A DNA stretch of 38,995 bases from a bacterium (GTDB taxonomy: Bacteria > ARS69), in NCBI GenBank assembly GCA_025774805.1, contig JALGZR010000053.1, forward strand, positions 1 to 38,995. The letters run 5' to 3'. Below the pieces are notes generated by a model. That model searched no databases, was not told the origin of the DNA, and saw only the letters and a program-made list of their open reading frames with translations. Shown one piece after another: positions 1,683-38,569 of the stretch (position 1 is the first letter of the stretch; each line of letters opens with the position of its first letter). Both the position numbers and the translations under genes were made by a program.

Positions 1683-1818
1683 ATTGAACCCGCTCATCCC
1701 GACGGTGCCGCGCGCGACCTCCCCGCGACCCCCGGGGGGTGGGGGCCGGGCCCCTTTCGTGCTATGATAGGTGCGGTATCGTGTGCCTCTCGCCGAGTAG
1801 GAGTAGGCGTTCCCCCTC

Positions 1819-1848
1819 GTAGTCATCGCGTACGTAGTCATCACGTAC
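1819..1848. repeat. Two tandem 15-bp repeats in the leader of the first propeller gene
   Basis: Two head-to-tail copies of GTAGTCATC(G/A)CGTAC, differing at one base, are followed by a related GCGTACGG stretch. They lie in the 216-base gap (1683-1898) before the propeller gene. The gap also holds a GC-rich palindrome ending in CCCCTTT (about 1745-1760), a possible weak terminator for the upstream gene, and a TATGAT hexamer at 1763-1768 that could be a -10 element but has no convincing -35 partner. The purpose of the repeat is unknown. Confidence 0.5.
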
Positions 1849-1898
1849 GGCGCGTACGGCGTCCCTGTGGCCAGCCCAACCGGGAGGTATTCCTGGTC

Positions 1899-4454
1899 AT
1901 GACAACACCCTCGATCGCCCCGATCCCCCGGGGCGCGACGATTCTGTTTGCGATCGGCCTATTGTTCTCCACCTCGGGCCTTCTCCTAGCTCCCCCCGCG
2001 TCCGCGGCGGAGAAGACGGACTCCGAGATCTTCCGCGAACGGATCGAAGAGATGCAGGCGGTCTTCGATGCCGAGCCCGAGCTCAAGTCCCGGAAGGGGA
2101 GCGGGTGGAAGCCATTCAACCGCGTGAAGTGGTTCCACGAACAGCGCATGGTCGACGGTGAGCTCCCCCCGGTCGACGGCCGTTGGAACGCATGGCTGGC
2201 CAAGAAGGAAATCGAACGGGAGTCCGTCCCCCGGGCCCGCAATTCGTGGTTCTCGCTGGGCCCGACGAACTTCTCGGGTCGAATGCTCGCCATCGACTTC
2301 CATCCCTCGGACCCCAACATCGTCTACGTCGGCGCGGCCAGTGGCGGGGTCTGGAAATCGACCGACAACGGAATCAACTGGACCCCGATCGCCGACGACA
2401 TTCCCGTGATCGCCGTGGGCGGCCTGGCGGTCGACAAGACGGACCCGGACGTCGTGGTCATCGGAACGGGGGAGGCCACGCTCAACGTCGACGCGGTGTC
2501 CGGGGTCGGGATGCTCCGGTCGACGGACGCCGGCAACACGTGGATCCCGACGAGCCTGACGACCCCTTTGGGGGGCGGGGGCGGCTGCCACTTCGTGGAA
2601 TGCAGCGTCAACGGGACCTTCCTGGCCGGCAGAAACGACGGCCTCTGGCGCTCGACCGACGGGGGCGCGACCTGGGATACCGTCCGCGTCGGCGGGGATT
2701 ACTACGACGCGGTGTGGAAGCCCGGCGACCCGACTCGGGTCTACACCGTGAAGGGCAACGACGGCAGCGGAAACAACGTGAAGGTTTCCACCGACGACGG
2801 CCAGACCTGGGCGAAGGCGGGAACCGGACAGCCGTTCTCCTTCCAGATCGGGAAGTCGAAGCTCGGGGTGACCGCGGCCAACCCGGTCCGGCTGTTCGCG
2901 CTGTTCGGCGAGCTCGGCGACGGGGGCGGGACCACCGGCTTCTACCGGAGCACCGACGACGGCGCCACGTGGACCGAGCGAAACGGAGGCTCGAATCTCA
3001 TCGGCGGTCAGAGCTGGTACAACATGGTCTGCACCGGCGACCCGGACGATCCCGGCATGGTGATCATCGGCGGCGTGACGTTGGCCAAGTCGGACAACAC
3101 CGGCGGCTTCTTCTACGGCATCGGGGGCAACGTCCACGTGGACATGCACGACATCGCCTACGAGCCGGGAAGCAGCTCGATCGTGTGGGTCGCCAGCGAC
3201 GGCGGCCTCTGGCGTTCCACGAACGACGGCGACACCTGGAGCAACCGGGACACCGGGATCGTCACGTACCAGTTCTACGACATCTGCGTGAACAATGACG
3301 ACACCACCGCGTACTACGTCATGGGCGGAACGCAGGACAACGGAACCGACAAGTGGTCGGGCACCACGACGTGGGGTCAGGGTCTCGGTGGAGACGGAAT
3401 GGTCTGCAACATCAGCCGGACCAACGGAAACACGGTGTACGCCGAAATGCAGTTCGGGAACCACCACAGGAACACGAACGCCGGGGTGGGCATCTGGTCC
3501 CCGATCAACGGCGGAATCACCGGCGAGGGCCTCTGGGTGACCCCCGTCGACGCGGATCCGAGCGATGGGAGCCGCCTGTTCACGTCGACCTCGCACGGCG
3601 TCTTCCGGTCGACGTCAGGCGGCTCGGGCTGGGTGAACGTCGCCGGCCACCCCGCCGGTTGGATCTCGATCAGTCCCGTGGACGGTGACGTGGTCTGGTC
3701 CGTCGCCGGCGCCTCCTCCCCCTGGTACTCGACGGACGGCGGGGACAACTGGACCCAAACCAGCAATTACGGATTCCTGACCGGGGGCACTACGAAGGTC
3801 CTGGCCCACCCGACCGACATCAACACCGCCCTCGTCACGTTCTCCGGCTACGCCGGCTACGCCCACGTGGCCCTGACGACCGACATGGGCGGGAACTGGA
3901 CCGACGTGACGGGCGACCTTCCGGATCACGCGACGAACGCGGTCGCGATCGACCCGAGCGACCCCGACTACTGGTACATCGGAACCGATCTCGGGGTCTG
4001 GTACTCGACGAACGGGGGCACGAACTGGACCCCGTTCCAGACCGGGCTGCCGAACGTCGTGATCCACGATCTCGAGATCCAGAACACCCTGCGCAAGCTC
4101 GTGGCGGGATCCCACGGACGCGGCGCCTGGGAGATCAACATTCCGCCCGGGGCGTCGGACGCGGAGCTCGACGTGAATCCGGTCTCTCTCCGGATGATGC
4201 TCGACGCGCCGTTCCCGAACCCCGTGAGCGACCGCACGATGCTCCGCTACGCCGCGAAGCATGACGGAACGGTCACCCTGGACGTCTACGACGTGCAGGG
4301 TCGCCACGTGATCAACCTCGCCGAGTTCACGACGGGCGACGGCATCATCCGGACCACTCCCTGGTTCCCGGACGACGTGCCGAGCGGCGTGTACTTCGCG
4401 GTCTTGAAGGCCGGCGAGGAGCAGATGACGCGAAAGATGGTCGTCACGAAATAG
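1899..4454 (+). CDS. Secreted sortilin/VPS10-like beta-propeller protein with FlgD/type-A-like C-terminal domain (copy 1)
   Basis: An 851-residue exported protein. The ATG at 1899 is preferred over an upstream in-frame ATG at 1764 because GGGAGGT lies 10 bases before it and a typical signal peptide follows (hydrophobic core about residues 14-32, ending ASA). A ~100-residue helical segment leads into many BNR/sortilin-type repeats (patterns such as STDGGATW and STNGGTNW) that should fold into one or two beta-propellers with Asp-box turns. The last ~85 residues (PNPVSDRT, VYDVQGR, SGVYFAVLKAG, ending KMVVTK) look like the FlgD-Ig or type-A sorting domains of secreted FCB-group proteins. No catalytic motif is visible; binding a surface polymer or protein is an inference. 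The next gene is a full-length paralog, and a strong terminator separates them. Confidence 0.85.
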   Translation: MTTPSIAPIPRGATILFAIGLLFSTSGLLLAPPASAAEKTDSEIFRERIEEMQAVFDAEPELKSRKGSGWKPFNRVKWFHEQRMVDGELPPVDGRWNAWLAKKEIERESVPRARNSWFSLGPTNFSGRMLAIDFHPSDPNIVYVGAASGGVWKSTDNGINWTPIADDIPVIAVGGLAVDKTDPDVVVIGTGEATLNVDAVSGVGMLRSTDAGNTWIPTSLTTPLGGGGGCHFVECSVNGTFLAGRNDGLWRSTDGGATWDTVRVGGDYYDAVWKPGDPTRVYTVKGNDGSGNNVKVSTDDGQTWAKAGTGQPFSFQIGKSKLGVTAANPVRLFALFGELGDGGGTTGFYRSTDDGATWTERNGGSNLIGGQSWYNMVCTGDPDDPGMVIIGGVTLAKSDNTGGFFYGIGGNVHVDMHDIAYEPGSSSIVWVASDGGLWRSTNDGDTWSNRDTGIVTYQFYDICVNNDDTTAYYVMGGTQDNGTDKWSGTTTWGQGLGGDGMVCNISRTNGNTVYAEMQFGNHHRNTNAGVGIWSPINGGITGEGLWVTPVDADPSDGSRLFTSTSHGVFRSTSGGSGWVNVAGHPAGWISISPVDGDVVWSVAGASSPWYSTDGGDNWTQTSNYGFLTGGTTKVLAHPTDINTALVTFSGYAGYAHVALTTDMGGNWTDVTGDLPDHATNAVAIDPSDPDYWYIGTDLGVWYSTNGGTNWTPFQTGLPNVVIHDLEIQNTLRKLVAGSHGRGAWEINIPPGASDAELDVNPVSLRMMLDAPFPNPVSDRTMLRYAAKHDGTVTLDVYDVQGRHVINLAEFTTGDGIIRTTPWFPDDVPSGVYFAVLKAGEEQMTRKMVVTK

Positions 4455-4498
4455 CGCACGTTCCATGAGATCATGAACGGGCTGCCATCAGGAAGAGA

Positions 4499-4530
4499 GC
4501 CCCGGACCGGAGGACCGGTCCGGGGTTTCT
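4499..4530 (+). terminator. Rho-independent terminator
   Basis: A perfect 11-bp GC-rich stem (4500-4510 pairs with 4515-4525) has a 4-base AGGA loop and is followed by TTTCT. It lies 45 bases after the first propeller gene and before the second, so the two paralogs are probably separate transcription units. Confidence 0.8.
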
Positions 4531-4562
4531 CGATCCTCCGCCCTTCGGAAAGGAAGCTCCCC

Positions 4563-7127
4563 ATGAGTCATCCGATTCTCCCGGCCCCGGTCCGGCGGGC
4601 CTCGGCCCTGACCGTTTTCCTCCTGCTCGCGCTGACGCTGACCGCGGGACCCGCCGCTTCCGCCGGGAGAACCGGGATCGGGGACGAGATCGCCACGAAC
4701 CCGGTGACCGACTGGTACGAGCGAATGGGTGCGTACTACGAGGCGCGTCCCGAGCTGAAGACGACCCGGGGGAGCGGCTGGAAACCGTACAACCGGTTGA
4801 AGTGGTTTCACGAGCAGCGGATGGTCGGAGGAGAGCTGCCTCCCGTCGGGGCCCGATGGAATGCGTGGAAGGTCCGGCAGGAGCGCGCGCGCCGGTCGGG
4901 ATCGGGCCGGAGCGCGCCTACCTGGTTCACCCTGGGCCCCACGAACTTCGCCGGACGCATCCTGGCCCTCGCGTTCGATCCTACGGATCCGGCGACGATC
5001 TACGCCGGATCGGCGAGCGGGGGGCTGTGGAAGTCCACCGACTCCGGCGGCACCTGGACGCCGTTGACGGATGAGCTGCCCACCCTCGCCGTGGGAGGAG
5101 TCGCCGTCAGTCCGTTCGATCCGGATCTCCTGGTCATCGGGACCGGCGAGGCGACGAACAACATCGACCGGGTCACCGGCGTCGGGATCCTGCGCTCGAC
5201 CGATGGCGGGCTCACCTGGCAGACGACCGATCTATCCTACCCGATAAACGGACACCACGGATTCCACTTCGTGGAGGCGGGGCCGAACGGTACGTTCCTG
5301 GCCGGCGCCACCGACGGTCTCTGGCGCTCGTCGGACGGGGGCGTGACGTGGGAGGCGGTGAAGTCGGGCGACGACTACTACGACGCGAAGTGGATGCCGG
5401 GCAATCCGAACCGGGTCTACACGGTCAAGGGCGGAGGGAACTCCGGGAACAACGTGAAGGTCTCGACCGACGACGGGCTCACATGGTCGAAGGCCGGCAC
5501 GGGCCAGCCCTATTCCTGGGAGATCGGGAAGTCCAAGATCGCCGTGACGCCCGCCGACCCGAACATGATCTACGCCCACTACACGCACCCGTCGGAGCAC
5601 AACACCCTCGGCATCTACCGCAGCACGGACGCCGGCGCGACCTGGACCGCCCGGAACGTCGGCGTCCCCATCGCGGGCTCGCAGGGGTGGTACAACCTCT
5701 CGATCGTCGTCGACCCCGATGACGCGGATCACGTCATCAGCGGAGGGATCCGGCTCTATCGATCCACGAACGGGGGGAGTTTCTGGTTCCAGGTGGGGGG
5801 GAACGTCCACGTCGACCACCACGCCATCGCCTACGAGCCCGGCTCGACGACCACGCTGTACGTGGGAACCGACGGGGGAATCTGGCGATCCACGGACGAC
5901 GCGTCGACCTGGACCGGCCGAAACTCGGGTCTCGTGACGTATCAGTTCTACGACATCTGCACGAACAACAACCCCGACACCCCTTACTACGTGATGGGAG
6001 GGACGCAGGACAACGGAACCGACAAGTGGTCCGGAACCACGACCTGGAGCAACGGTCTGTTTGCCGACGGCATGGTCTGCAACATCGACCCGACCAACGG
6101 CACGAGGGTGTATGCGGAGATCCAGCAGGGGGAGCACTACCGAAACACGAACTCCGGGACGGGAAGCTGGACCTGGATCAACAGCGGGTTGCCCGGGGGA
6201 GGACGGTGGGTCGCGCCGACCGATCTCGATCCGCACGACGGCCAGCGCCTCTTCACCGTGTCGGGCGCCAATCTCTACCGATCGATCAACGGGGGGAACG
6301 GTTGGGCGCTCGTCGACAACCGCAACCCCAAGTGGATCTCCATCAGTCCGGTCGACGGAAACGTCGTCCTGACCCTGCTCGATGGGCACGTCCGGTACTC
6401 GACCAACGGGGGCAGTGGCTGGATCGACTCGGCGGTCTTCGGGTTCCCCACCGGAACGTCGCTCCGCGTACTCGCCCACCCGACGGATCTGAACACCATC
6501 TTCGTGACGTTTTCGGGATACGCCGAGGGGCTCGCGCACGTCGCCATGTCCACCGATCGGGGAGACACCTGGATCGACGTCACGGGGGATCTCCCGTCCC
6601 AGCCGGTGAACGACATCCTCGTGGATCCGGACGAGATCACGAACTGGTACATCGCCACCGACGTCGGGGTGTGGAAGAGCTCCAACGGCGGCACGAACTG
6701 GTACCCCTTCGAGGTCGGTCTGCCCAACGCCGTCGTCTCCGATCTCGAGATCCAGACCCACCAGCGGAAGCTCGTCGCCGGAACGCACGGGCGGGGGGCC
6801 TGGGAGATCGACATTCCTCTCGGGGGCACGGGTGCTCGAGTCGACGGCGGTCCCGCCGTTCGCTCGCTCATGCTCGACGCCCCGTGGCCCAATCCGGTCG
6901 CGGACCGCACCCTCCTCCGCTTCGCCGCGTGGCACGCGGGGACCGTGAGCCTCGACGTCTACGATGTCGGCGGTCGGCGCATCGTCCATCTGGTCGAGCT
7001 CCCGGTGGGTGACGGCGTCGTCCGGACTACCCCGTGGTTCCCCGATGGCGTCCCGAACGGCGTCTACTTCGCGGTGCTGCGGGCCGGGGAGCGGAAGATC
7101 ACCCGGAAGCTGGTCGTCGCGCGCTGA
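4563..7127 (+). CDS. Secreted sortilin/VPS10-like beta-propeller protein with FlgD/type-A-like C-terminal domain (copy 2)
   Basis: An 854-residue paralog of the preceding protein with the same architecture: signal peptide (hydrophobic core about residues 13-28, ending ASA), the conserved segment GSGWKPYNRLKWFHEQRMV, BNR/sortilin-type repeats throughout, and a C-terminal ~85-residue domain with PNPVADRT, VYDVGGR and GVYFAVLRAG. The ATG at 4563 is chosen over one at 4473 because the earlier start would place the terminator hairpin inside the coding region; GGAAAGGAAG precedes 4563. Long conserved blocks, such as YYVMGGTQDNGTDKWSGTTT in both copies, show a tandem duplication followed by divergence. 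The function is probably extracellular or surface binding; no enzyme motif is seen. Confidence 0.85.
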   Translation: MSHPILPAPVRRASALTVFLLLALTLTAGPAASAGRTGIGDEIATNPVTDWYERMGAYYEARPELKTTRGSGWKPYNRLKWFHEQRMVGGELPPVGARWNAWKVRQERARRSGSGRSAPTWFTLGPTNFAGRILALAFDPTDPATIYAGSASGGLWKSTDSGGTWTPLTDELPTLAVGGVAVSPFDPDLLVIGTGEATNNIDRVTGVGILRSTDGGLTWQTTDLSYPINGHHGFHFVEAGPNGTFLAGATDGLWRSSDGGVTWEAVKSGDDYYDAKWMPGNPNRVYTVKGGGNSGNNVKVSTDDGLTWSKAGTGQPYSWEIGKSKIAVTPADPNMIYAHYTHPSEHNTLGIYRSTDAGATWTARNVGVPIAGSQGWYNLSIVVDPDDADHVISGGIRLYRSTNGGSFWFQVGGNVHVDHHAIAYEPGSTTTLYVGTDGGIWRSTDDASTWTGRNSGLVTYQFYDICTNNNPDTPYYVMGGTQDNGTDKWSGTTTWSNGLFADGMVCNIDPTNGTRVYAEIQQGEHYRNTNSGTGSWTWINSGLPGGGRWVAPTDLDPHDGQRLFTVSGANLYRSINGGNGWALVDNRNPKWISISPVDGNVVLTLLDGHVRYSTNGGSGWIDSAVFGFPTGTSLRVLAHPTDLNTIFVTFSGYAEGLAHVAMSTDRGDTWIDVTGDLPSQPVNDILVDPDEITNWYIATDVGVWKSSNGGTNWYPFEVGLPNAVVSDLEIQTHQRKLVAGTHGRGAWEIDIPLGGTGARVDGGPAVRSLMLDAPWPNPVADRTLLRFAAWHAGTVSLDVYDVGGRRIVHLVELPVGDGVVRTTPWFPDGVPNGVYFAVLRAGERKITRKLVVAR

Positions 7128-25848: not shown

Positions 25849-27912
25849 TCACTCGACGGCCGGGAACCCGATCCAGCTCCAGTATCCCAGAAACGCCCAT
25901 AACCAGAGTACTAGTAAGGAGAGCGCCACGGCCACCATTCCGTGCTTCATGAAGTCCCTCAGCGTCACCAATTGTTCCCCGGTCCGAGGGTCCTTGGCCA
26001 TGGCATAGGCGATCGCGTTGTTGGGAGTTCCGATGATCAGCATGTGCGCGAATGATGACGCGAACGCGGTGGCAAAGCCGACCGTCCAGGGATGGACCCC
26101 CGCGAGCTTTGCCATGGGGACAGTGATCGGCCCAATGGCGGCGACGGTGGCGCCGTCGCTCATGAAGTTGGTGGTCAGCCCGGTGAACAGGCTTGCCGCC
26201 ATGGCCAGGCCCATCCCTTCCAGCATCGAGTCCGGAAGCAGGGAGACGAAGCCATCCGCCAGATACAGCGCCGCTCCCGTCACGGCAACGCCCTTCCCGA
26301 TGGCGCTGGCGGCCGCATAGAGGAACACCACCTCCCACGGAATCCGCACGATGTCCCTCCAGGACATCACGCGCAAGAGATTGAGCGCGACCAGGCCCAG
26401 AATCACCGGACCTCCCATACCCAGGGAATTGCAGGAGGTGATCCACAGCAGAATGACGGTGACCAAAACGGCCGCCGTTATGTACTCGTTCTTCGTCATC
26501 GGACCGATCCGTTCGGAGGCGTTGCGCACCGTGCGGGACACATCGAGCTTCTTCACACGGATCTTTCTGCGGAACACGAAGTAAAAGTACGTCCCCATGA
26601 CCACAGCCATGACAGGGACGTAGGGGAGCCCGTACTTGACCCACTGCCCGAACGAAGGTGCAACGCCGTAGTCTGCGAGAATGCCGATCATGACTGCGTT
26701 TCGCCCGCCGGCCGCCGGCGAACCGGGACCACCGATGTTGGCCACGAAGCAGACGGACAGCACGAAGAGGACCATCAACGGGCGGTCCTGCTTCAATCCC
26801 GTCCCGCGCAAGGTGGTTACGTAGACCATTACGAACAGCGGCATGAGGAATGCGATGAGGGCGTGCTCCGATACGAAGGAGCAGGCCACGGCGAGTCCCG
26901 GCAGGAAGAGGAACATCAACAAACCGAGGTTGCGCGCGGATCCCAACAGTAGAATCCCGAGGCGTCGGTCCAGGCCGGTCTTGGTGATCGCTCTGCTCAT
27001 GGCCAGCACGCCGAAGATGAAAATCACCGCGTCTTTAGCAAAGGCCTGGGCGATGTCGTCCGGGCGCAGGATGTTGCACAGATACATGCACGCGGCGACG
27101 AACAGGGCCGTTACCCCTACCGGGATCGCCCCCGACGCCCAGAACAACGCCGCCACCATCAGGACCCCAAGCATCACCTTCGCCCGGCGGGCGACCTCGT
27201 CGGGCGTGAGGCCACGCTCCACGGGGGTGCCGTCCCCGGAAGAGCTGGCCTTCTTCAGCTTGTACTTTCTGCTGTAGTGGTCCGGAATGGTGTCCCCTCG
27301 GTTCATGTTCATATAGTCCGCGTATCCGAAAATGGCATCGGGCATCCCGATCGCGGCGGCGGAGGATACAGACTTCGGGGCCGACAGCAGGTCGAGCAAC
27401 CGTTTCGGGGCCGGGCCGAGCAACAGCGCTGCCATCAGAAGCGCCCCGATCAGGATGAAGAGAGGTCTTGAATTGTGGCTGCCGAGGAGCCACGACGCGA
27501 ACGTCGTCGACTTCCGAACAGGGATCTCGTACCGCACCCTCGCGTGGACCGCCTGAGCACGCGCCTCGTCCACGGTCTCGAGCAGGCGGGCCAGGTCCAC
27601 CGGCTTCTCCATGTACCGGAACACATCCAAGCGGCCCGCCTCGGCCGCCGACTCGAGGCTACCGAAAGCCGTCAGCATGATCACCTGGACCTCCGGGCGG
27701 AACTCCTTGACGATCTTGAGCGTCTCCTCACCGCTCAGGCCCGGCATCTTGCGATCCAGCAGCATCACGTCGATCTCGAGATCGATACGGATCATCTTCA
27801 CGGCGTCGTCGCCGTTGGCCGCCTCCACAGTCTCGTGTCCCCGCAGGTTGAGCCGCCCCGCGAGTGACGACCGGAACTCGTGCTCGTCGTCGACGAGAAG
27901 GATCTTCGGCAT
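25849..27912 (-). CDS. Receiver domain fused to an SLC13/DASS-type membrane transporter
   Basis: A 687-residue fusion. Residues 1-120 are a receiver domain with D8/D9, phosphoacceptor D53 (MLLDRKMPG), T81 and K103 (MEKPVD). After a linker, residues ~150-680 form about twelve membrane helices resembling divalent-anion/sodium symporters (ArsB/NhaD-like superfamily). Conserved landmarks include FIFGVLAMSRAITKTGLDRR, the first ion-site loop CSFVSEHALIAFLMP, a second TNFMSDGATVAAIGP, and IIGTPNNAIAYAMA. The two SNT motifs that bind sodium and carboxylate in DASS carriers are replaced by SEH (348-350) and SDG (585-587), so ion or substrate use is probably altered. Phosphorylation of the receiver could gate transport or make this a transceptor. 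The gene lies between a CBS protein (8-base gap) and a receiver protein. Confidence 0.88.
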   Translation of the reverse strand: MPKILLVDDEHEFRSSLAGRLNLRGHETVEAANGDDAVKMIRIDLEIDVMLLDRKMPGLSGEETLKIVKEFRPEVQVIMLTAFGSLESAAEAGRLDVFRYMEKPVDLARLLETVDEARAQAVHARVRYEIPVRKSTTFASWLLGSHNSRPLFILIGALLMAALLLGPAPKRLLDLLSAPKSVSSAAAIGMPDAIFGYADYMNMNRGDTIPDHYSRKYKLKKASSSGDGTPVERGLTPDEVARRAKVMLGVLMVAALFWASGAIPVGVTALFVAACMYLCNILRPDDIAQAFAKDAVIFIFGVLAMSRAITKTGLDRRLGILLLGSARNLGLLMFLFLPGLAVACSFVSEHALIAFLMPLFVMVYVTTLRGTGLKQDRPLMVLFVLSVCFVANIGGPGSPAAGGRNAVMIGILADYGVAPSFGQWVKYGLPYVPVMAVVMGTYFYFVFRRKIRVKKLDVSRTVRNASERIGPMTKNEYITAAVLVTVILLWITSCNSLGMGGPVILGLVALNLLRVMSWRDIVRIPWEVVFLYAAASAIGKGVAVTGAALYLADGFVSLLPDSMLEGMGLAMAASLFTGLTTNFMSDGATVAAIGPITVPMAKLAGVHPWTVGFATAFASSFAHMLIIGTPNNAIAYAMAKDPRTGEQLVTLRDFMKHGMVAVALSLLVLWLWAFLGYWSWIGFPAVE

Positions 27913-27920
27913 CGGTCCTC

Positions 27921-28487
27921 CTAGGTGCCGTCGACGTCGTCGCCGGATTCGAGGATGTGATCGGAGAGGTGGTCGAAGATGTCGCTCAGGCGGAGCACAC
28001 CCACGACTACGTCGTCGTACCGGACCAGCAGGGACAGCGTCTGATGTTGCACCAGGAGCCGTATGGCGGCGACGAGCGGAATGTTGTGCTCGATCGAGAT
28101 GGCCTCCTGGGACGCTATGTCTCCAACCCGGATCGAGAGCGCGCGCTCGCGGATGTCCGAGAGGTGCCCATGCAGGAGCGCCAGGTTCTCCATGGTCTGA
28201 CGTGCGAGTTCTTCGCTCACCCAGGCCCGTTGCAGCATCGGAATCCGGAATTCCTTCTCGTGCCAGGGCAGCAGCGCGTCGAGGATCGCGAAGTGGTCGA
28301 TCTTCCCCACGAAGTTCCCCCCGGCGTCCCGCACCAGAATGGCGCGGTTGGGCTGTCGGCCGGGCGGCAGCTTTCGCTGGGCTTCCTGCAGCGCCTGCAG
28401 GGCCTGCGCGAGGGTATCGTTCTCACTGACGCTGGCATACTCCGACAGCGGGACCATCAAACCAACAATGGTTGTTATGGGTGACAT
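27921..28487 (-). CDS. CBS-domain pair protein
   Basis: A 188-residue protein with two CBS motifs, residues ~8-75 (SVSENDTLAQALQALQ...NRAILVRDAGGNFVGKID) and ~118-180 (AISIEHNIPLVAAIRLLV...VVVGVLRLSDIFDHL), separated by a helical linker. CBS pairs bind adenine nucleotides or SAM and regulate partner proteins, often transporters. ATG 28487 lies 9 bases after the kinase stop, and GAGG from the kinase 3' end can serve as its ribosome site; the transporter fusion starts 8 bases after its own stop. The spacing implies translational coupling and a role in regulating the transporter by energy charge (inference). Confidence 0.88.
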   Translation of the reverse strand: MSPITTIVGLMVPLSEYASVSENDTLAQALQALQEAQRKLPPGRQPNRAILVRDAGGNFVGKIDHFAILDALLPWHEKEFRIPMLQRAWVSEELARQTMENLALLHGHLSDIRERALSIRVGDIASQEAISIEHNIPLVAAIRLLVQHQTLSLLVRYDDVVVGVLRLSDIFDHLSDHILESGDDVDGT

Positions 28488-28496
28488 CGGAGTCCT

Positions 28497-30221
28497 CTAC
28501 TTGTCTTCGGCGGACCCGGCCCAGCCTTCCTTGCCCATGAACTGCCTGGTCGGAAGGTCAAACCGAAAGCGGCTTCCGACTCCCGGCTCGCTGTCCACGA
28601 AAAATTCGCCGCCGAGATTCTTGATGATGCTGAGGCTCACGGACAGTCCCAGTCCGGTGCCTTTGCTCGATGGCTTGGTCGTGAAGAAAGGAGTGAAGAC
28701 GTGCTCCATCTGCTCCGACGTCATTCCACATCCGGTGTCCCTGACGGAGACCGAGACACGTCCATCCCGGAGCCGAGTCTCGAGTGTGAGCTGTCCGCCG
28801 CCTTCCATGGCGTCTACCGCGTTCCGAATGAGATTGACAAGAACCTGCAGGATCTGGGCCCGGTCAGTGTGTACGGAGGGGAGATCCTCGCCGTAGCGCT
28901 TCACAACCTCGATGTGGGCTAGCGAGAGCTCGCGGCCGAGCAGGCCGTCCGCGGCTTCGTCCACGATTTCGTTGACATCGTGAGGGAGTATCTTGACCCC
29001 CCGCTGCCGCACGAAGCTCAACAACTTCTGCGTAATGTCTCGGCAGCGGAAGACCGCGGAGTGGGCGGCGTCCAGACGGCGGTTCAACTCTTCAGTGGTG
29101 AGTCTCCCCCCGAACTGCGGGTCCTGGAGATCCTTCATCATGCCGATTTCTTCAGCGATGATCGCCAGGGGGTTGTTGATCTCGTGAGCGATGCCCGCGG
29201 CAAGCTCTCCCACCGAGGCGAGCTTGGCTGCGTGCACGAGTTGACCCGATAGCTCGGCCTCGGCGCGATCGGTCTCTATGCGGGTCGTGGCCAGGAATCG
29301 GGCGCGAATCCAAAGGACGACTCCTGCGAACAAGAGCGCCGCGACGGTGAGTGCCACCATCAAGCGGTAGCCTGGATCCGACAGCATGGCGAGCCCGCTG
29401 CCGCTGGGGCTCGTGACCGCTAGCGTCCACGGTGCCATGTCCAGCCGGGCGTAAGCATACTCGACTCCCGCCCCGGCGCCGGAGGCCTCCACCACCCCGA
29501 CCGCGGGCTCCCGGGGAGGCACGAACGCAGACTGTTGCGGATGCTGGCCGCCCGAGTCCGGGGCGATCTGCAGGTACCCCTCCACGTTCACGACCACGAT
29601 CCGCTCACGCTCGCCGCTATCCGAAGGAACGATCTCTCCATAGAGCTTCGCGGGATCCAACGCTGACCGGAGGACGTAGCTGACGCCCTCGACATCCCGG
29701 CGCACGGCAACGGTGAAGTGAGGTTCATCGCGGAAGCCGAGATAGATGTCGGTCACGATGTGCTGTTGGTCGCTGGACAGAAGCTGCTCAAACCAGGGCT
29801 CGTCGCCGTAATTGACGGACTGCGGGAACTGGTGCGGCCCCACGTACATCCGGAGATTGCCAAGCTCGTCGAGCTGCCCCAGGTCCACGAACGCATCGCT
29901 CGTCGTTTGCAGCTGCTCGAGGGCTCTCTGAAGACGGGCCTGATCCGGGTCCGCCAGGTGGCCGGGATCGTCAATGACGTTGAACAGGTCGATCCATCGC
30001 TCGCGCAGGAAGAGGTCCAGGGTCGACGCGCGGTTCTCGGCTACGGTCGTCAGGTGTGCCAGGTGGCTCTCGCGCATCAACCGGCGGTACTGGAAGTGGA
30101 AGAACAGTGAGAGGAGCAGGAGGGGAGCGAAATACAGCAGGAAGACGCGGCGGAGCTCGCGACGAAGAACGGCCTTGTAGGTGGTGCCTTGAGGCGACGG
30201 CTTCCCTTTCGTGCTGTCCAT
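28497..30221 (-). CDS. Membrane sensor histidine kinase with extracytoplasmic Cache-like domain
   Basis: A 574-residue kinase from ATG 30221, chosen because GAGG lies 6 bases upstream; ATG or TTG codons at 30227-30257 are alternatives. TM1 spans about residues 26-44 and TM2 about 286-305, enclosing a ~240-residue extracytoplasmic sensor region of dCache type (FYDEPWF-like segment near 138-145, YVLRSALDP). A HisKA dimerisation domain follows with H346 in AGIAHEINNPLAII, then a HATPase_c domain with NLIRNAVDAM (N box), DTGCGM (G1), FTPFFTTK (F box) and GTGLGLS (G2). It heads the operon with the CBS protein, the receiver-transporter fusion and a receiver protein, so it probably phosphorylates both receivers. 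Its ligand is unknown; Cache domains usually bind small organic acids or amino acids. Confidence 0.92.
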   Translation of the reverse strand: MDSTKGKPSPQGTTYKAVLRRELRRVFLLYFAPLLLLSLFFHFQYRRLMRESHLAHLTTVAENRASTLDLFLRERWIDLFNVIDDPGHLADPDQARLQRALEQLQTTSDAFVDLGQLDELGNLRMYVGPHQFPQSVNYGDEPWFEQLLSSDQQHIVTDIYLGFRDEPHFTVAVRRDVEGVSYVLRSALDPAKLYGEIVPSDSGERERIVVVNVEGYLQIAPDSGGQHPQQSAFVPPREPAVGVVEASGAGAGVEYAYARLDMAPWTLAVTSPSGSGLAMLSDPGYRLMVALTVAALLFAGVVLWIRARFLATTRIETDRAEAELSGQLVHAAKLASVGELAAGIAHEINNPLAIIAEEIGMMKDLQDPQFGGRLTTEELNRRLDAAHSAVFRCRDITQKLLSFVRQRGVKILPHDVNEIVDEAADGLLGRELSLAHIEVVKRYGEDLPSVHTDRAQILQVLVNLIRNAVDAMEGGGQLTLETRLRDGRVSVSVRDTGCGMTSEQMEHVFTPFFTTKPSSKGTGLGLSVSLSIIKNLGGEFFVDSEPGVGSRFRFDLPTRQFMGKEGWAGSAEDK

Positions 30222-30307
30222 CGTCATCCTCGTCCCCGCACCAGGAACACCCATCAACCATTGGCCGCGCTGGATGGTTGGCCGCGGGGCACAGAAGACA
30301 TCTAGAC

Positions 30308-32596: not shown

Positions 32597-33004
32597 TCAG
32601 TCGCTCGGCGCGGACCCGGCAAACAGGACCTTCAGCACGGAGAGCAACGTCTTTTGGTCTACCGGTTTGCCCAGCACGCCGTCGGGGCCCCGCACGCCGT
32701 GATGGGAACCCAGATAGGATTGGCAGTCGTCCTCGAGGATCTTGTCGTTCCCGGTGATCACCACCAGTGGGATGTCGCTCCACCGTGGGTCGCTGCGGAG
32801 GCCGACCAGCAGGTCGAGACCGGAGCGTCCCGGCATCAGCACATCGAGCAGCACGGCATCGGGGCGTGACCGGGCGACGGCCTCACGAGCGCTGGCCGAG
32901 TCGTTCGCCGCGGCCACCTCATAGCCGTTGTCCTCCAGGAACGACGACAGGTACGTCACGACGTCCGGGTCGTCGTCCACAACAAGGACCTTCTTGCCCT
33001 TCAT
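32597..33004 (-). CDS. Single-domain response regulator
   Basis: A 135-residue CheY-like receiver protein with D10/D11/D12, D54 (VLLDVLMPG), T84 (VITGND) and K113 (LGKPVD). ATG 33004 lies 3 bases after the stop of the PAS kinase, so the two are translationally coupled and almost certainly partners. There is no output domain; a short ~15-residue tail follows. It is the last gene of operon B. Confidence 0.93.
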   Translation of the reverse strand: MKGKKVLVVDDDPDVVTYLSSFLEDNGYEVAAANDSASAREAVARSRPDAVLLDVLMPGRSGLDLLVGLRSDPRWSDIPLVVITGNDKILEDDCQSYLGSHHGVRGPDGVLGKPVDQKTLLSVLKVLFAGSAPSD

Positions 33005-33007
33005 CCA

Positions 33008-34486
33008 TCACACCCTTGGCTTGGTGCTCGGCCGGGCATCCACCGGGAGCCGGATCACGAACCGGCTCCCTCGCCCCGGTTCCGATTCCACCTCGATGTC
33101 GCCCCCGTGCTTGTCCACGATCTTGTTCGCGATGAACAAACCGAGCCCGGTGCCCTTGATGCCCTTCGAAGAGAAGAACAGCGAGAAGATCTTCTCCTGA
33201 GTTTCGCGGTCCATGCCGATGCCGTTGTCACGGATGTCGAACACCACCCAGGGCTCCTCGCGCAGGACGCGGACGCTGACCTTCCCCTCCCGCTTTGGCC
33301 GCTTATTAACCGCACCGCAGGCCTCCACCGAGTTCTCCAGGACGTTGACGAGCATCGCACGGATCGCGTTGGAGTCTCCTTGAAAGGAACCGACATCCGG
33401 CGCGACCTCGACTTTCAACGCGATCTCCCCGTCGCCGGCCTTGCCGGCCAGGGTCTCCCGGACCTCCTCCATCAGCGGGCCTACCTCGATCTCGGCCAAC
33501 GTCAATTCGCGGTCCTTCGCGTAGTAGAGAATGTCGAGGACCATGCTGCGAATCCGGCCCACGTTGCGTTGGACCATCGCCCAGCCTTCCTCGACCCGAT
33601 CCGGCTTGTCCTTGGCGAAGCCGGTGTTTACCAGGTAGATCCCGCCGTCGAGACCGGTGAGCAGGCCCTTGATGCCGTGGGAGATCGATCCCACCAGCAG
33701 GCCGATGGAGGTGAGCTGGGATTGTAACTGGCGAATCTGGGTGATGTCCGTGGCCATCTCGATCACGGCCTCGATTTCGCCCTCGGCGTTGTGCACCGGT
33801 GAGGTCGTGCAGATCGCATTCATCTTCTCGCCGTCGGCGGTAATGAGGACCTCCTCGTGCTCCCGTGTTTCCCCGTCCTTTAGGGTCTGTACGGCAGGAC
33901 ATACGAGACACTGTTCGTCGCGATGCTTGTAGACACGGTAGCAGTACTGCCCCACCGAGGGTCCGAACGCCTCGCGGAATTTCCGGTTGGCGTGTTGGAT
34001 GACGAGGTCGGGGCCGTGCACCGCGATGTGGCACGGGACCTCCTCGAACAAGGTAGCTAAACGCCTCTCGCTGTCCCTAAGCAGTCCCTCCAGCCGTTTC
34101 ACCTCGCCGATGTCGGTGTGCATCTCCATCACGGCCTCGACCTCGCCACCTTCGTCGCGGATCGGCGTCGTGTGGACCATCACCGGCAGGCTCTCGCCCT
34201 CGCGAGTGGTCAGGGTCTGCTCGCTGCTGTGGGATTGACCGTCGGCGAAGGTCGCCTCTACGGGGCAGCTCGGGCATATCTCTTCACGCTGCTTGTAGAC
34301 GCGGTAGCAAAAATCGCCGATGCAGTCGCCGAAATCGGCCCGAAACCTGCGGTTGCCCTCGATGATGCGGAAGTCACGATCGTGGACGGAAAGATAGCAG
34401 GGCATTTCCTCCCAGTACTTCCGGTACGGGGCTGCGGCCGGCGATCTGCCGGTGTCAGCGGGGGAATTGACCGGATCGTCTGCCAT
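33008..34486 (-). CDS. Cytoplasmic histidine kinase with two four-cysteine PAS domains
   Basis: A 492-residue soluble kinase without membrane helices. PAS1 (~18-130) and PAS2 (~145-250) are clearly duplicated. Each has four cysteines at the same spacing: C30, C60, C71, C74 and C152, C182, C193, C196 (C-x29-C-x10-C-x2-C), in CYRVYK(Q/H)R contexts, with a further C55. That pattern suggests metal or Fe-S binding in each sensor. HisKA carries H270 in GSISHGIK, and HATPase_c has VLENSVEAC (N box), DNGIGMD, FSLFFSSKGIKGTGLGL and a final ESEPGRGSRF. It starts 13 bases after the HdrD-receiver fusion and is followed by a receiver gene after 3 bases. It probably phosphorylates both receivers in response to redox state (inference). 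Confidence 0.9.
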   Translation of the reverse strand: MADDPVNSPADTGRSPAAAPYRKYWEEMPCYLSVHDRDFRIIEGNRRFRADFGDCIGDFCYRVYKQREEICPSCPVEATFADGQSHSSEQTLTTREGESLPVMVHTTPIRDEGGEVEAVMEMHTDIGEVKRLEGLLRDSERRLATLFEEVPCHIAVHGPDLVIQHANRKFREAFGPSVGQYCYRVYKHRDEQCLVCPAVQTLKDGETREHEEVLITADGEKMNAICTTSPVHNAEGEIEAVIEMATDITQIRQLQSQLTSIGLLVGSISHGIKGLLTGLDGGIYLVNTGFAKDKPDRVEEGWAMVQRNVGRIRSMVLDILYYAKDRELTLAEIEVGPLMEEVRETLAGKAGDGEIALKVEVAPDVGSFQGDSNAIRAMLVNVLENSVEACGAVNKRPKREGKVSVRVLREEPWVVFDIRDNGIGMDRETQEKIFSLFFSSKGIKGTGLGLFIANKIVDKHGGDIEVESEPGRGSRFVIRLPVDARPSTKPRV

Positions 34487-34499
34487 CTTGGAGACCGCC

Positions 34500-36329
34500 C
34501 TATTTCTCTACTTCAAGTCCACCCTTTTGGTGCCGTTCCTCGACCTCGAGGATACGTCGGATATTGGCGATCAGTCGTTCCTCGTCCACCGGTTTGTCCA
34601 TGTAGCCCTCGGGTGGCCGGGCCGGCCGGTCGTAGATCAGGCTCCGGAACTCCGGATGGCCGGTGACGATGCAGACGGGGATCTCTTCGAGTCCATCGGT
34701 CCGTCGAAGCTCGCAGAAGGCATCGATGCCGTCCTTGCCGGGCATGGAAAGGTCTAGCGTGATGAGATCCGGCTTCTCGCGCGCCGCCACGGCGATGGCT
34801 TCGTCGCCGTCCGACGCCGTTATCACCTCAGCGCCCGCGTCCTCGAGCATCGTGGTGAGGAAGACCCTCACGTCTTCCTCGTCGTCGACGACCAGGATCC
34901 GGCGGCCCTGCAGTGCCGCTTCTCGCATCTCTTCCTCCTCGGCGGCCGGGGCCGCAGGAACGGCCTCGGCCGGGGCCGCGACCTCAACCGGCTCCTCTTC
35001 CACGGCCGGTTCCTCGAGAACCAGAGCGTCCGCCACCAGGTCGACGAGTTGCCTGACCTCGCAATCGATTTTGTAGTGCTTGATCAGGTCGCCCAGACCA
35101 TCGACACAGTTGTGGCAGGACGTGACGATGTACTTGGCCCCGGTGGCCGCGATCTCGTCGGCCTTGACCTTCCCCGACGCGAGTCGCCGGGGAGTGTACT
35201 CGGACATCGACATCGCGCCCCCACCGCCGGTGCAGCAGAGGCCTTCCAGGCGATTGTGCTCCAGCTCCTGGAAGTCATTGGTCACCACGTTGATCAGCTC
35301 GCGAGGCTCCTCGAAGAGCCCGCAGCTGCGAGCGTTGTTGCACGAGTCGTGGAACGTGTATCGCCCGGAGTTCTTCGACTTGTCGACCATGATGCGGCCC
35401 TCCCTGATGTAGCGCAACATGGTCACGACGGAGCTTTCCATGATGAAGGGGTTGTCGGCTCCCGACCAGTTGACCGCCTCGCACCGGGTCGAACGATATC
35501 CGTGACCGCACTCCGAGATCACCACGCGCTCGGCCCCGAGGTTCGCGGCGGATTCGTAGACCCGCTTCCCACAGGTGCCGCCGAGCAAGTCGTCACCTGA
35601 GAACAATCCGAAATTGGTTTGGTCCCAGCCGTCGCTGGTCATCGTCCAGTCCTCTCCCGCAGCGTAGAAGATCAGCGCAGCCTTCATGATCGTGCGCGGG
35701 TCGTACTTCACCTCGCGTGGATTGATGACGTAGACGATCTTGGCGCCCTTCTTGTCGATCGGGATCGCAGCCTTATTGTGGCCCAGGTCTTCCTCCAGCT
35801 CCTCGGACATCCACTCCAGCGTGTCGATGTAGTCCTCTTTCAAGACCCCCATCTGGTTGCCGATTTCCCATTGATCCTTGCTGACCACCCGCACGCCCTC
35901 GGGCATGACCCCCACGTGGGTGAGCAGACCGCGCATGATGCGATTCAGCGTCGCGGTGTCCACACCCATCGGGCAGTTGAAAGTACATCGACGACAGTTG
36001 GTGCACGTTCCGAACGCGATGTCCTTGAGCTTGTCGAGGTCGTCGTCGGTCAGCTGGCCGTTGGCCTTGACCCACCACGGGAAGACTCGTCCCGTCCAGT
36101 CGTGATTGCGCTTGAAGATCTTGCGGAGCTGATCCGCCTTGTAGCTGGGGGTCATTGTCGGGTCGTCGGGATGTGTCATGACGTAGTGGCACGAGTCGTT
36201 GCACATTCCGCAGTGGACGCAGCCCACCAGCGATGCGACGACCTGCCGGGTCAGCTTCTTCTGAAGCTGCTCTTCCATCATCCGGACTTTGCGGTCCCGG
36301 GTGTCCTTGGCCACGATCTCCTCCGTCAT
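34500..36329 (-). CDS. HdrD/DsrK-type Fe-S oxidoreductase fused to a C-terminal receiver domain
   Basis: A 609-residue fusion. Two [4Fe-4S] sites come first: C37-x2-C40-x2-C43-x3-C47 and C109-x2-C112-x2-C115-x3-C119. A first CCG-like domain (~195-290) lacks the full cysteine set. A second (~325-415) has the complete C330-x34-C365C366-x38-C405-x2-C408 signature of heterodisulfide reductase HdrD, DsrK and HmcF, which hold a special cluster acting on thiol-disulfide substrates. A Glu/Ala/Pro linker (438-468) leads to a receiver domain with D482/D483, D526 (LITLDLSMPG), T556 and K579. The start overlaps the cytochrome b gene stop as ATGA. With that membrane protein it resembles HdrDE or DsrMK electron-transfer pairs. 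Fusing a receiver to such an enzyme implies control by phosphorylation. Confidence 0.92.
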   Translation of the reverse strand: MTEEIVAKDTRDRKVRMMEEQLQKKLTRQVVASLVGCVHCGMCNDSCHYVMTHPDDPTMTPSYKADQLRKIFKRNHDWTGRVFPWWVKANGQLTDDDLDKLKDIAFGTCTNCRRCTFNCPMGVDTATLNRIMRGLLTHVGVMPEGVRVVSKDQWEIGNQMGVLKEDYIDTLEWMSEELEEDLGHNKAAIPIDKKGAKIVYVINPREVKYDPRTIMKAALIFYAAGEDWTMTSDGWDQTNFGLFSGDDLLGGTCGKRVYESAANLGAERVVISECGHGYRSTRCEAVNWSGADNPFIMESSVVTMLRYIREGRIMVDKSKNSGRYTFHDSCNNARSCGLFEEPRELINVVTNDFQELEHNRLEGLCCTGGGGAMSMSEYTPRRLASGKVKADEIAATGAKYIVTSCHNCVDGLGDLIKHYKIDCEVRQLVDLVADALVLEEPAVEEEPVEVAAPAEAVPAAPAAEEEEMREAALQGRRILVVDDEEDVRVFLTTMLEDAGAEVITASDGDEAIAVAAREKPDLITLDLSMPGKDGIDAFCELRRTDGLEEIPVCIVTGHPEFRSLIYDRPARPPEGYMDKPVDEERLIANIRRILEVEERHQKGGLEVEK

Positions 36330-37024
36330 GCCCTGGAGTAGGGGAAGCTACCCCTATGACCCAGAGCCTTGCCGATCCACCACCGCGAAAACGGGTAGTA
36401 CAAATAGTGCGAAATCTTCGAGAAGGGGACGTACAGCAAGAAAAAGCTGGTCAGCAGCAGGTAGGCCACCAGCCAGTTCTCGCTCGCAAACCGCGACGCG
36501 CCGGCGATGTGGGCCTGCGTCGCGACGCCCACGGCGAACCATACGGTGAGCATGATCAGCGAGAAGTAGTCGTCCGGAGAGCTGATCAGCCGCATCACCG
36601 GTCGGAACAGCCGGCGCAGCAAACGGTAGATGGCGACCAAAAAAGCGGCGGCGATCGTTCCGCCTACGATCCATGCGACCACTGGAATCTGCAGCGCGCC
36701 GGGGGCGATGGTGCTGACGAATGCCAATCCGATACCCGACACGACGCCGAGATGGAAGACGACAAAGCTGATCCAAAACGCAAACCCTTTGCCCGCCCTC
36801 GTGCTCTCCATGCTCCACGGCATGGCGACGTTGCCCAGCGAGTACATCCCACCCTTCCGGGCGTTGGTAAGCTCGGGTTGACCCGGCGCGGAGCGGTCCT
36901 TCGCTCCCTTGAACCTGAACAACCACCGAATTCGAAGGGCGTAGACGACCCCCATCACCACCAGGGCGGTCCAGTGGATCACCTCCACAGTCATCAGAAG
37001 AGCGCTTGGTTCGTCATGCGGCAT
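36326..37024 (-). CDS. Cytochrome b-like membrane subunit (NarI/DsrM/HdrE type)
   Basis: A 232-residue protein with about five membrane helices. ATG 37024 has AAGGGAG 9 bases upstream; GTG 37030, overlapping the macro-domain stop as GTGA, is an alternative. Histidines inside or next to helices (H19, H93, H174 and H208, counted from the GTG) can serve as heme b ligands; the first lies in EVIHWTALVV, the last in FSKISHYLYYPF, as in NarI-like proteins. It should pass electrons between the quinone pool and the Fe-S partner encoded immediately downstream (4-base overlap). It is short for DsrM and typical for NarI/TmcC-like subunits. Confidence 0.85.
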   Translation of the reverse strand: MPHDEPSALLMTVEVIHWTALVVMGVVYALRIRWLFRFKGAKDRSAPGQPELTNARKGGMYSLGNVAMPWSMESTRAGKGFAFWISFVVFHLGVVSGIGLAFVSTIAPGALQIPVVAWIVGGTIAAAFLVAIYRLLRRLFRPVMRLISSPDDYFSLIMLTVWFAVGVATQAHIAGASRFASENWLVAYLLLTSFFLLYVPFSKISHYLYYPFSRWWIGKALGHRGSFPYSRA

Positions 37025-37026
37025 CG

Positions 37027-37554
37027 TCACGCACTCCCTTCGATCTCTTTCTTGAATGGTTCGTACTCCCGCTCGTCCATGGTCACGAACAGAACCTCCT
37101 CGAGCGTCGTGGGGTTCTCGAGGTGTTTCGTGACGGTCTCCACCATCACGCGAGCGCAGAGGTCCATGGGCACCTGGTAAAGGCCCGTGCCGATGGGGGG
37201 AAAGGCGAGACGCTTGATGCCCTTCTCGTCGGCACGGCGCAACGCGTTCTCGGTGACGCTGCGGAGCTTCCCCTCCTCGTCCTCTTCCCTGAACTTTGGA
37301 CCGTTGACGTGGATTATGTAGGCCGCCTTGAGGATCCCCGCCTGGGTGACGACCGCCTCGCCCGTGGGGCAGCTACCGACCTCATCCAGCTCGTGCTGGA
37401 TCACGATGCCGCCACGGCGCTGGATCGCGCTGCCGAAGCCCGCGCCGAGCTTCATATCAGAGTCGATGTCGAAGACGAAAGCCTCGACATCCAGGGCGGT
37501 GAGATCCCCCCGTATCAGCCGAACGATCCGTTCGCCTATCCTCTGCTCGACCAT
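37027..37554 (-). CDS. Macro-domain protein with a divergent ADP-ribose loop
   Basis: A 175-residue protein, all one macro domain: GDLTALDVEAFVF, the GAGFGSAI loop, CPTGEAVVT, YIIHVNGP, and the phosphate-binding IAFPPIGTGLYQ-like segment (AFPPIGTGLY). These domains bind ADP-ribose or NAD derivatives and often remove ADP-ribose from proteins. The usual NAAN motif, whose Asn residues position substrate and water, reads FDIDSD here, so hydrolase activity is doubtful and binding alone may be the role. It lies between the Rrf2 regulator and the cytochrome b gene in operon B, which suggests sensing of NAD-derived signals (inference). Confidence 0.88.
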   Translation of the reverse strand: MVEQRIGERIVRLIRGDLTALDVEAFVFDIDSDMKLGAGFGSAIQRRGGIVIQHELDEVGSCPTGEAVVTQAGILKAAYIIHVNGPKFREEDEEGKLRSVTENALRRADEKGIKRLAFPPIGTGLYQVPMDLCARVMVETVTKHLENPTTLEEVLFVTMDEREYEPFKKEIEGSA

Positions 37555-38052
37555 TCCCTGTCTCCTCTCGGGCCCGATCGGGACCCCACACTGTCAGCAA
37601 ACGCCCCCCCCTCCGCGGGGGCGGCGCCGCCACGGTGAGCCCTGACCCAGTCCGCATCGAGCAGGTTCGCGAGCGTATTGCCCTGAAGGACCTCGACGAT
37701 CTGCTCGTTCATCACTCGGGAGATCATCCGGCTCTCGCAGTAGTCAGCGCGGGGACAGGAGGCCGGGTCGTCAACGCAGTCGACCAGGCAGGAGGGGCCG
37801 ATCAGGGCTTCGAAGATCCGGCCGACGGTGATCTCGTCGGTCGGAGCGGCCAGCTCGTGCCGTCCGCGGAGACCCGCCGCGAAGCAGACGCGCGGAGCGC
37901 AGCGAGAGCTCGACCTGCTCGAGATAGTCCTTGGAGATGTCGGTGCGCTTGGAGACGATGGTGAGGCCGACCGGATCGTCCTGGTCCGTGTGCCGGGCGA
38001 CCTCCAGCATCATCCGCGGGGCGTTAGGAGCACGCGTCAGAATTCGCATCAT
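37536..38052 (-). pseudogene. Rrf2-family transcription regulator with a frameshift
   Basis: ATG 38052 (AGGAAG ~10 bases upstream) opens an Rrf2 winged HTH: MRILTRAPNAPRMMLEVARH, then ISKDYLEQVELSLRSARLL. Near 37874-37883 the frame is lost. A second frame then continues exactly as Rrf2 proteins do: GRHELAAPTDEITVGRIFEA and a cysteine cluster C-x3-C-x6-C-x5-C (SCLVDC...SCPRADYC), likely Fe-S ligands, to a stop at 37536 that overlaps the macro gene. A two-base loss (GC in a CGCGCGG context) or one-base gain explains the break. It may be a true pseudogene or a sequencing error; intact, it would be an Fe-S sensor controlling operon B. Confidence 0.75.
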
Positions 38053-38239: not shown

Positions 38240-38569
38240 ATGAGCAGTCGCAGAGCCCTGATCATCGACGACGAACCCGATGTGGCGACCTACCTGGCTA
38301 CGCTGCTGTCGGACCACGGCTGGAACGTCCGGACGGCGCACGACGTGAACAAGGGACTCGAACTCGCGAGGGAAGAGATCCCGGACGTGGTGCTGCTCGA
38401 TCTGATGATGCCTGACCGAGGAGGCCTCAGTGCGCTGGTCGAGCTTCGTATCCGCAACTTCCTTGCACGATTCAAGTATCGGAAGGCGGATGCCTTCCTC
38501 GACAAGCCCGTGGAGCCGGACAAGTTACTCAAGACGGTGGACGAGCTCACTTCCCGGCGGACCGACTGA
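38240..38569 (+). CDS. Response regulator with an internal deletion
   Basis: A 109-residue receiver protein from ATG 38240 (GGAG 6 bases upstream), divergent from operon B. It keeps D10/D11, phosphoacceptor D54 (VVLLDLMMPD) and K89 (LDKPVE), but only 35 residues separate D54 from K89, against 50-59 in the other four receivers of this window. The missing stretch is strand 4, helix 4 and the conserved Thr/Ser that receives the phosphorylation signal. The frame stays open, so it may be a decayed or altered receiver. Its first 70 and last 35 residues are otherwise standard. Confidence 0.78.
   Translation: MSSRRALIIDDEPDVATYLATLLSDHGWNVRTAHDVNKGLELAREEIPDVVLLDLMMPDRGGLSALVELRIRNFLARFKYRKADAFLDKPVEPDKLLKTVDELTSRRTD

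Follow-up and report, generated by a model that had tools for sequence, protein, structure and literature searches.

Two-component control of respiration is thought to be mainly transcriptional. A bacterial contig (JALGZR010000053.1 in GenBank assembly GCA_025774805.1, GTDB lineage ARS69) raises the question of whether such control may also be built into a respiratory enzyme itself: one of its genes encodes an iron–sulfur oxidoreductase subunit that continues into a receiver domain, beside a gene for a membrane cytochrome b. The window analysed here covers positions 1 to 38,995 of the contig. A preliminary description, made from the sequence and its open reading frames, had read the gene as an HdrD/DsrK-type enzyme that might be under direct control by phosphorylation.

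Anatomy and predicted fold of the fused protein

The gene and its parts lie on the minus strand.

34500-36329, minus strand: Fe–S/CCG oxidoreductase subunit joined to a receiver, 609 residues, with an HmcF/TmcB-related core
35961-36224, minus strand: ferredoxin segment for two [4Fe-4S] clusters, residues 36-123 (Pfam Fer4_8, 5e-9), its eight cysteines invariant in 62 of 62 proteins
35106-35360, minus strand: CCG domain, residues 324-408 (Pfam CCG, 2e-9, one copy), its cysteines kept in 62 of 62
34905-35015, minus strand: linker rich in Ala, Val, Glu and Pro, about residues 439-475, with a pLDDT of about 50 in the predicted model
34560-34898, minus strand: receiver domain, residues 478-590 (Pfam Response_reg, E 7e-21; Z about 18-19 to receiver folds)
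34752-34754, minus strand: codon of the phosphoacceptor Asp526, invariant in 62 of 62 fused homologs

The whole is encoded by a single unbroken open reading frame. Re-reading this frame together with its Pfam matches returned what the preliminary description had seen: an intact frame, two ferredoxin motifs, the CCG cysteine spacing C330-x34-C365C366-x38-C405-x2-C408 and a linker leading into an intact receiver, with D526, T556 and K579 at the positions it had given. These residues follow the acid pair D482/D483, which completes the CheY-type set of acid pair, aspartate acceptor, threonine or serine, and lysine. The described 4-bp overlap with the cytochrome b gene was likewise recovered, the cytochrome gene ending at 36326 and the oxidoreductase gene starting at 36329. 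Across the fused family, the linker has a median length of 23.5 residues (range 15-57).

The AlphaFold model of the fused protein has a pLDDT of 83.6 and a pTM of 0.77, with low confidence in the receiver α4 region. By fold, the modelled core resembles EtfD, a membrane CCG enzyme, along 391 residues (Z 26.7); the CCG part resembles HdrB (Z about 20), and residues 475-600 resemble receiver folds (Z about 18-19). A sequence search of solved structures returned, among the matches listed, receivers and EtfD only.

Family placement of the core

The core has the features of the DsrK/HmcF/TmcB superfamily: two four-cysteine ferredoxin motifs, a C-terminal CCG domain and a partner gene for a cytochrome b. 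Its NCBIfam scores are highest for HmcF (NF045711, 305.7 bits; curated cut-off 750), followed by TmcB (NF045724, 296.2; 735) and DsrK (NF045796, 248.8; 400), all below the cut-offs. In a tree of 92 cores, with SH-aLRT values of 91-94 at the deep nodes, the fused family and a few unfused clades form one group that is sister to HmcF/TmcB, with DsrK outside. By score and by tree, the core is nearer to HmcF/TmcB; on these grounds and on its single CCG domain, the label HdrD/DsrK-type was abandoned.

HdrD-type proteins carry two CCG motifs. We rejected an HdrD identity on the single CCG stretch found by Pfam, against two complete motifs in HdrD, and a DsrK identity on the subthreshold score and the separate tree branch. 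Membership of TmcB fails on its score, and that of HmcF both on its score and on the gene neighbours, which are a macro-domain protein, a cytochrome b, a histidine kinase and a receiver rather than the 16-haem HmcA and HmcB-D.

Distribution and origin of the fusion

We scanned GTDB-species contigs and kept the best 80 of at least 277 relatives as loci. This yielded about 63 fused homologs, although the frequencies of fused and unfused relatives in the set are biased by a query built from motifs of the fused protein and by the restriction to the best 80. The fused homologs span at least 12 named phyla by record titles and taxonomy: Acidobacteriota, Myxococcota, Zixibacteria, Thermodesulfobacteriota, Ignavibacteriota, Bacteroidota (Kapaibacteria), Elusimicrobiota, Electryoneota, Calditrichota, Planctomycetota, Gemmatimonadota and Hydrogenedentota. 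G010, a genome from a different family, has a copy that is 64% identical and lies among the same five genes. The fusion of the preliminary description is therefore real, although it belongs to a widespread family and is no peculiarity of one genome.

An alignment of 62 full fused proteins included those of the window and G010; the protein of L072 is also fused and lies outside the alignment. D526 and K579 are invariant in 62 of 62, position 556 is threonine or serine in all of them, and the acid pair is kept in 61-62 of 62. This conservation, whose absence the preliminary description had named as evidence against its reading, rules out a degenerate receiver. In the core, E273, C274 and H276 are invariant, as are the eight ferredoxin cysteines and C330, C365, C366, C405 and C408. 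In a receiver tree, all of the fused receivers group in a single clade that excludes the stand-alone receivers; the ancient fusion thus most likely arose once and was then retained. Four genomes of the window's own family (G001-G004) contained neither a fused copy nor dsrA, and give no support for vertical inheritance within that family.

A conserved operon with a kinase and a cytochrome b

Four further genes accompany the fused gene.

37027-37554, minus strand: macro-domain protein, 175 residues, first gene of the conserved operon (Pfam Macro, 2e-28)
36326-37024, minus strand: HmcE/TmcC-like membrane cytochrome b, 232 residues (NCBIfam HmcE 6.5e-15 and TmcC 1e-9, both below cut-off)
33008-34486, minus strand: soluble PAS-PAS histidine kinase, 492 residues (Pfam PAS_4 and HATPase_c)
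32597-33004, minus strand: stand-alone receiver without an output domain, 135 residues (Pfam Response_reg, 9e-21)

The conserved order is macro, cytochrome b, fused subunit, kinase, receiver. The kinase gene lies directly 3′ of the fused gene in 58 of the 61 loci with sequence there (59 if L099, with a frameshifted core, is included); L034 and L053 are fused without an adjacent kinase. The downstream stand-alone receiver, present in most loci, falls into more than one lineage in the receiver tree. As the core operon contains no DNA-binding domain, the only effector physically linked to the receiver is the enzyme.

The cytochrome b had been called NarI-like; its sequence is instead closer to HmcE/TmcC. 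Only His91 and His206 are invariant (80 of 80 sequences), whereas the two-haem DsrM/NarI type has four conserved haem-ligand histidines. With two invariant histidines, the HmcE/TmcC-like protein would bind at most one b haem, compared with two in DsrM or NarI. A sequence search of solved structures gave no match to it among the matches listed.

The kinase gene is separated from the fused gene by 13 bp. Its product matches HATPase_c but no HisKA model of Pfam; His270, within SHGxKGLL, is invariant in 51 of 51 full-length orthologs. The same orthologs share invariant cysteines at positions 60, 71 and 74 in the first PAS region, at 152, 182, 193 and 196 within or adjoining the second, and at 390; in the PAS domains they form an invariant C-x10-C-x2-C pattern. 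The protein lacks a clear transmembrane segment (top 19-residue hydropathy mean 1.33), which, together with the invariant cysteines, suggests a cytosolic kinase that senses a redox or sulfur signal.

As a separate observation, the macro-domain protein, the conserved first gene of this respiratory operon in 54 of 63 loci, lacks the canonical NAAN-type motif and instead has the family motif YA..DL.LGSG.G.AI..rGG (alignment of 61).

Relatives with no receiver or a separate receiver

Cores without any receiver also lack the kinase (Nitrospirota L074, L078 and L086; L073; Aminicenantes L093 and L098; L094), so that receiver and kinase were gained or lost together while cytochrome b and core persisted. 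These Nitrospirota and Aminicenantes relatives indicate that the receiver is dispensable for catalysis. No receiver remnants were found 3′ of the unfused Nitrospirota cores.

Homologs with the receiver as a separate gene, which the preliminary description had expected to speak against its reading, do exist. L077 is a natural split: the core ends, a receiver gene preceded by a GAGGAGG site starts 52 bp further on, and the kinase gene comes next. In L087, L088 and L090 the order is cytochrome b, core, universal-stress-like protein, HEAT protein, receiver, kinase, and Hmc clusters of Desulfobacterota (L141 and L142) contain stand-alone receivers, USP and kinases. Such a neighbourhood of hmc has been published for D. 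multivorans (PMC5109826) and, as cited in that paper, for D. vulgaris. The objection thus holds in part; since receiver and kinase genes stay next to that of the same enzyme even where unfused, these versions nevertheless favour a functional link rather than counting against one.

Two observations concern the contents of these loci. Unfused relatives L087-L092 carry universal-stress-like and HEAT-repeat proteins between the core and the receiver and kinase genes. DsrC-like genes occur directly 3′ of the receiver- and kinase-free Nitrospirota core (L078:9377-9742) and of the fused core in L034 (L034:9742-10488, a 248-residue protein with two DsrC-like domains).

Association with dissimilatory sulfite reduction

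In Zixibacteria and Syntrophaceae the operon sits within dsr clusters, and in several genomes it lies between dsrC and dsrMK(JOP). In L061, one strand-consistent run reads dsrA, dsrB, a dsrD-sized gene, dsrN, dsrC, the operon, a DsrMK-like pair, dsrM, dsrK and dsrJ, with NCBIfam scores of 545 bits for dsrA, 528 for dsrB, 116 for dsrC, 458 for DsrM, 730 for DsrK and 156 for DsrJ, the N-type gene also being confirmed. Similar arrangements are found in L037, L042, L044, L055 and L063, and in unfused Aminicenantes relatives dsrC lies immediately 5′ of the pair of cytochrome b and core. A dsrA above the cut-off was present in 41 of the 47 fused genomes tested, the window's own included, against 5 of 58 other genomes from a phylogenetically mixed and unmatched sample of relatives (Fisher p 4e-17). 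It was not found in 6 of the 47, which could reflect incomplete MAGs.

On another contig of the same genome (C105), genes annotated by similarity to other loci comprise a second DsrMK-like pair, dsrA, dsrB, a dsrD-like gene, dsrN, dsrC, dsrM, dsrK, dsrO and dsrP. This dsrC encodes both C-terminal cysteines. As aprA was not found in this draft assembly, the source organism probably respires sulfite or a sulfonate instead of reducing sulfate. The gene neighbourhood makes DsrC, in its trisulfide form, the leading candidate for the redox partner.

A proposed phosphorylation-gated electron-transfer module

The domain anatomy, the single ancient fusion, the invariance of the phosphosite, the co-inheritance of receiver and kinase and the dsr association are our starting points, to which we add phosphotransfer, substrate, gating and the sign of gating as predictions. 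We propose that an HmcE-like one-haem cytochrome b and a cytoplasmic HmcF/TmcB-like Fe–S/CCG subunit would form a two-subunit membrane module, accessory to dissimilatory sulfite reduction, which would pass electrons between the quinone pool of the membrane and a thiol-disulfide partner in the cytosol, such as DsrC. The C-terminal receiver would turn the electron-transfer subunit into a response regulator. The neighbouring PAS-PAS kinase, with its invariant cysteine triads, would phosphorylate D526 on sensing a redox or sulfur signal in the cytosol; the α4–β5 face could then re-dock, against either the redox core or its partner, to gate electron flow, and the stand-alone receiver may share or drain the phosphate. 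Next to β5, the fused receivers carry a family-specific segment, PELR-LIYdR-PPEGYlDKP, unlike stand-alone receivers. Located on the usual receiver output face, it may contact the redox core or the partner.

Direct modulation of electron flow is suggested by the lack of a DNA-binding output, the strict phosphosite and the co-inherited kinase, together with the loss of both receiver and kinase in relatives that retain catalysis only. The preliminary description is upheld in part: a genuine receiver with an invariant phosphosite is joined to a CCG subunit that has a cytochrome b partner, and the kinase lies beside it in 58 of 61 loci. This would be consistent with a two-component system acting directly on a respiratory module; the HdrD/DsrK naming is not upheld. 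We consider an accessory quinone/DsrC-type electron-transfer module, gated via phosphorylation of its own subunit, to have an even chance of being correct. Somewhat more tentative is the broader reading of an ancient, widespread family in which the respiratory electron-transfer subunit is itself the response regulator, a cytosolic cysteine-rich PAS kinase switches DsrC-linked flow directly through phosphorylation, and, by analogy, orphan receivers of hmc and tmc clusters in sulfate reducers act on HmcF/TmcB in trans. A receiver within a respiratory subunit, with its own kinase, in dsr clusters and retained over at least a dozen phyla, suggests that dissimilatory sulfur metabolism is under rapid post-translational control. 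Sulfur respiration may thus be switched by phosphorylation directly, not via gene expression, and receivers and kinases beside hmc and tmc may have a direct action on the complex.

The main rival casts the enzyme as the sensor: electron flow through the core would alter the fused receiver, acting as a docking site or phosphate sink, and set the activity of the kinase, with gene regulation as the output. It is well established that receivers can serve as phosphate sinks or as docking parts for kinases. Candidate outputs are the stand-alone receiver and nearby Rrf2, MerR-like HTH and sigma-54-type proteins; most loci pair the kinase with a stand-alone receiver, and many have Rrf2 or HTH genes upstream. 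However, the DNA-binding genes differ between loci, and the stand-alone receivers, which lack an output domain, stem from more than one lineage, whereas the fused receiver and the kinase are constant. The lineages and missing output domain of the stand-alone receiver make the sensor role less likely, and we regard it as possible but doubtful.

It is improbable that the partner is another disulfide or a ferredoxin and that the dsr link is ecological, not mechanistic. The six fused genomes in which dsrA was not found would agree with this, as would the ties of TmcB and HmcF to hydrogen and periplasmic cytochrome metabolism (PMC5109826). By contrast, the operon lies within dsr clusters in Zixibacteria and Syntrophaceae, dsrC adjoins the Aminicenantes pair, a DsrC-like gene follows the core in L034 and L078, and the operon contains no multihaem cytochrome c.

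Quite improbable, too, is a receiver that serves independently of phosphorylation as a structural part, for dimerisation or for anchoring the kinase or DsrC. Some relatives work without a receiver, and the conserved surface motif beside β5 would suit such a role, but the full catalytic phosphosite set, needless for pure structure, is invariant over at least 12 phyla, and the presence of the kinase tracks that of the receiver. An assembly or sequencing artefact has a negligible chance: the sources include draft MAGs, and frameshifts occur nearby (Rrf2, L099), but about 63 fused copies, independent of one another and sharing a single tree signal, refute it, among them the G010 copy with the same five genes.

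Comparison with known systems

Hmc shares with the fused module a homologous Fe–S/CCG subunit and cytochrome b (HmcF/HmcE), and its clusters likewise include two-component genes, besides one for a universal stress protein; in L144, Rrf2 lies beside hmcF. However, Hmc has the 16-haem HmcA, HmcB, HmcC and separate receiver genes, whereas the fused module has no cytochrome c or periplasmic subunits. Tmc resembles it in a homologous core (TmcB) and membrane anchor (TmcC), but TmcB is unfused and the module lacks the tetrahaem cytochrome TmcA.

DsrMK of DsrMKJOP belongs to the same superfamily, with a CCG catalytic subunit and a cytochrome b; it is coupled to DsrC and DsrAB, and its genes are often the next ones in the cluster of the fused operon. 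It differs in its separate deep branch, in the two haems of DsrM against one histidine pair here, and in a DsrK without a receiver, and the window's own genome has a true DsrMK besides the fused module. HdrDE/HdrB share the CCG-domain fold; besides the second CCG motif of HdrD, methanogen cofactors, which are not involved here, set them apart from the fused module. As in CheB/PleD-type response regulators, a receiver is joined to an enzyme with an adjacent kinase in control, but here the output is a membrane-associated respiratory redox subunit and the receiver is C-terminal.

The fusion was undescribed in the open-access literature searched (DsrK, HmcF/TmcB, DVU0258/DVU0259 and tmc), with most subscription journals outside the search. 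What is new is that the fusion is covalent, that it occurs in the setting of dsr clusters and that it spans so many phyla; two-component genes beside hmc were already known.

Other features of the window

Two further regulatory genes lie beyond the macro gene.

37580-38052, minus strand: Rrf2-family regulator gene, frameshifted in the assembly (Pfam matches Rrf2 in the first frame; the C-terminal half is read in a different one)
38240-38569, plus strand: divergent stand-alone receiver with the β4 segment missing (Pfam Response_reg, partial)

Rrf2 is intact at the equivalent place in L025, L026, L028 and L029. Compared with its orthologs in L026, L028 and L029, the divergent receiver has lost about 20 residues around β4, including the T/S position, and is possibly degenerate.

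A second receiver on a non-DNA-binding effector is encoded at 25849-27912 on the minus strand, where residues 4-114 match a receiver and 237-682 a Na+/sulfate-type SLC13 transporter (Pfam). The gene adjoins those for a CBS-domain protein (27921-28487) and a Cache/HisKA kinase (28497-30257); G028 has a copy that is 57% identical over residues 3-684, and a broken paralog lies on another contig of the same genome (C149). Finally, two long tandem genes on the plus strand (1764-4454 and 4473-7127) encode, by resemblance, F510_1955 glycosylhydrolase-type repeats with type IX secretion tails.
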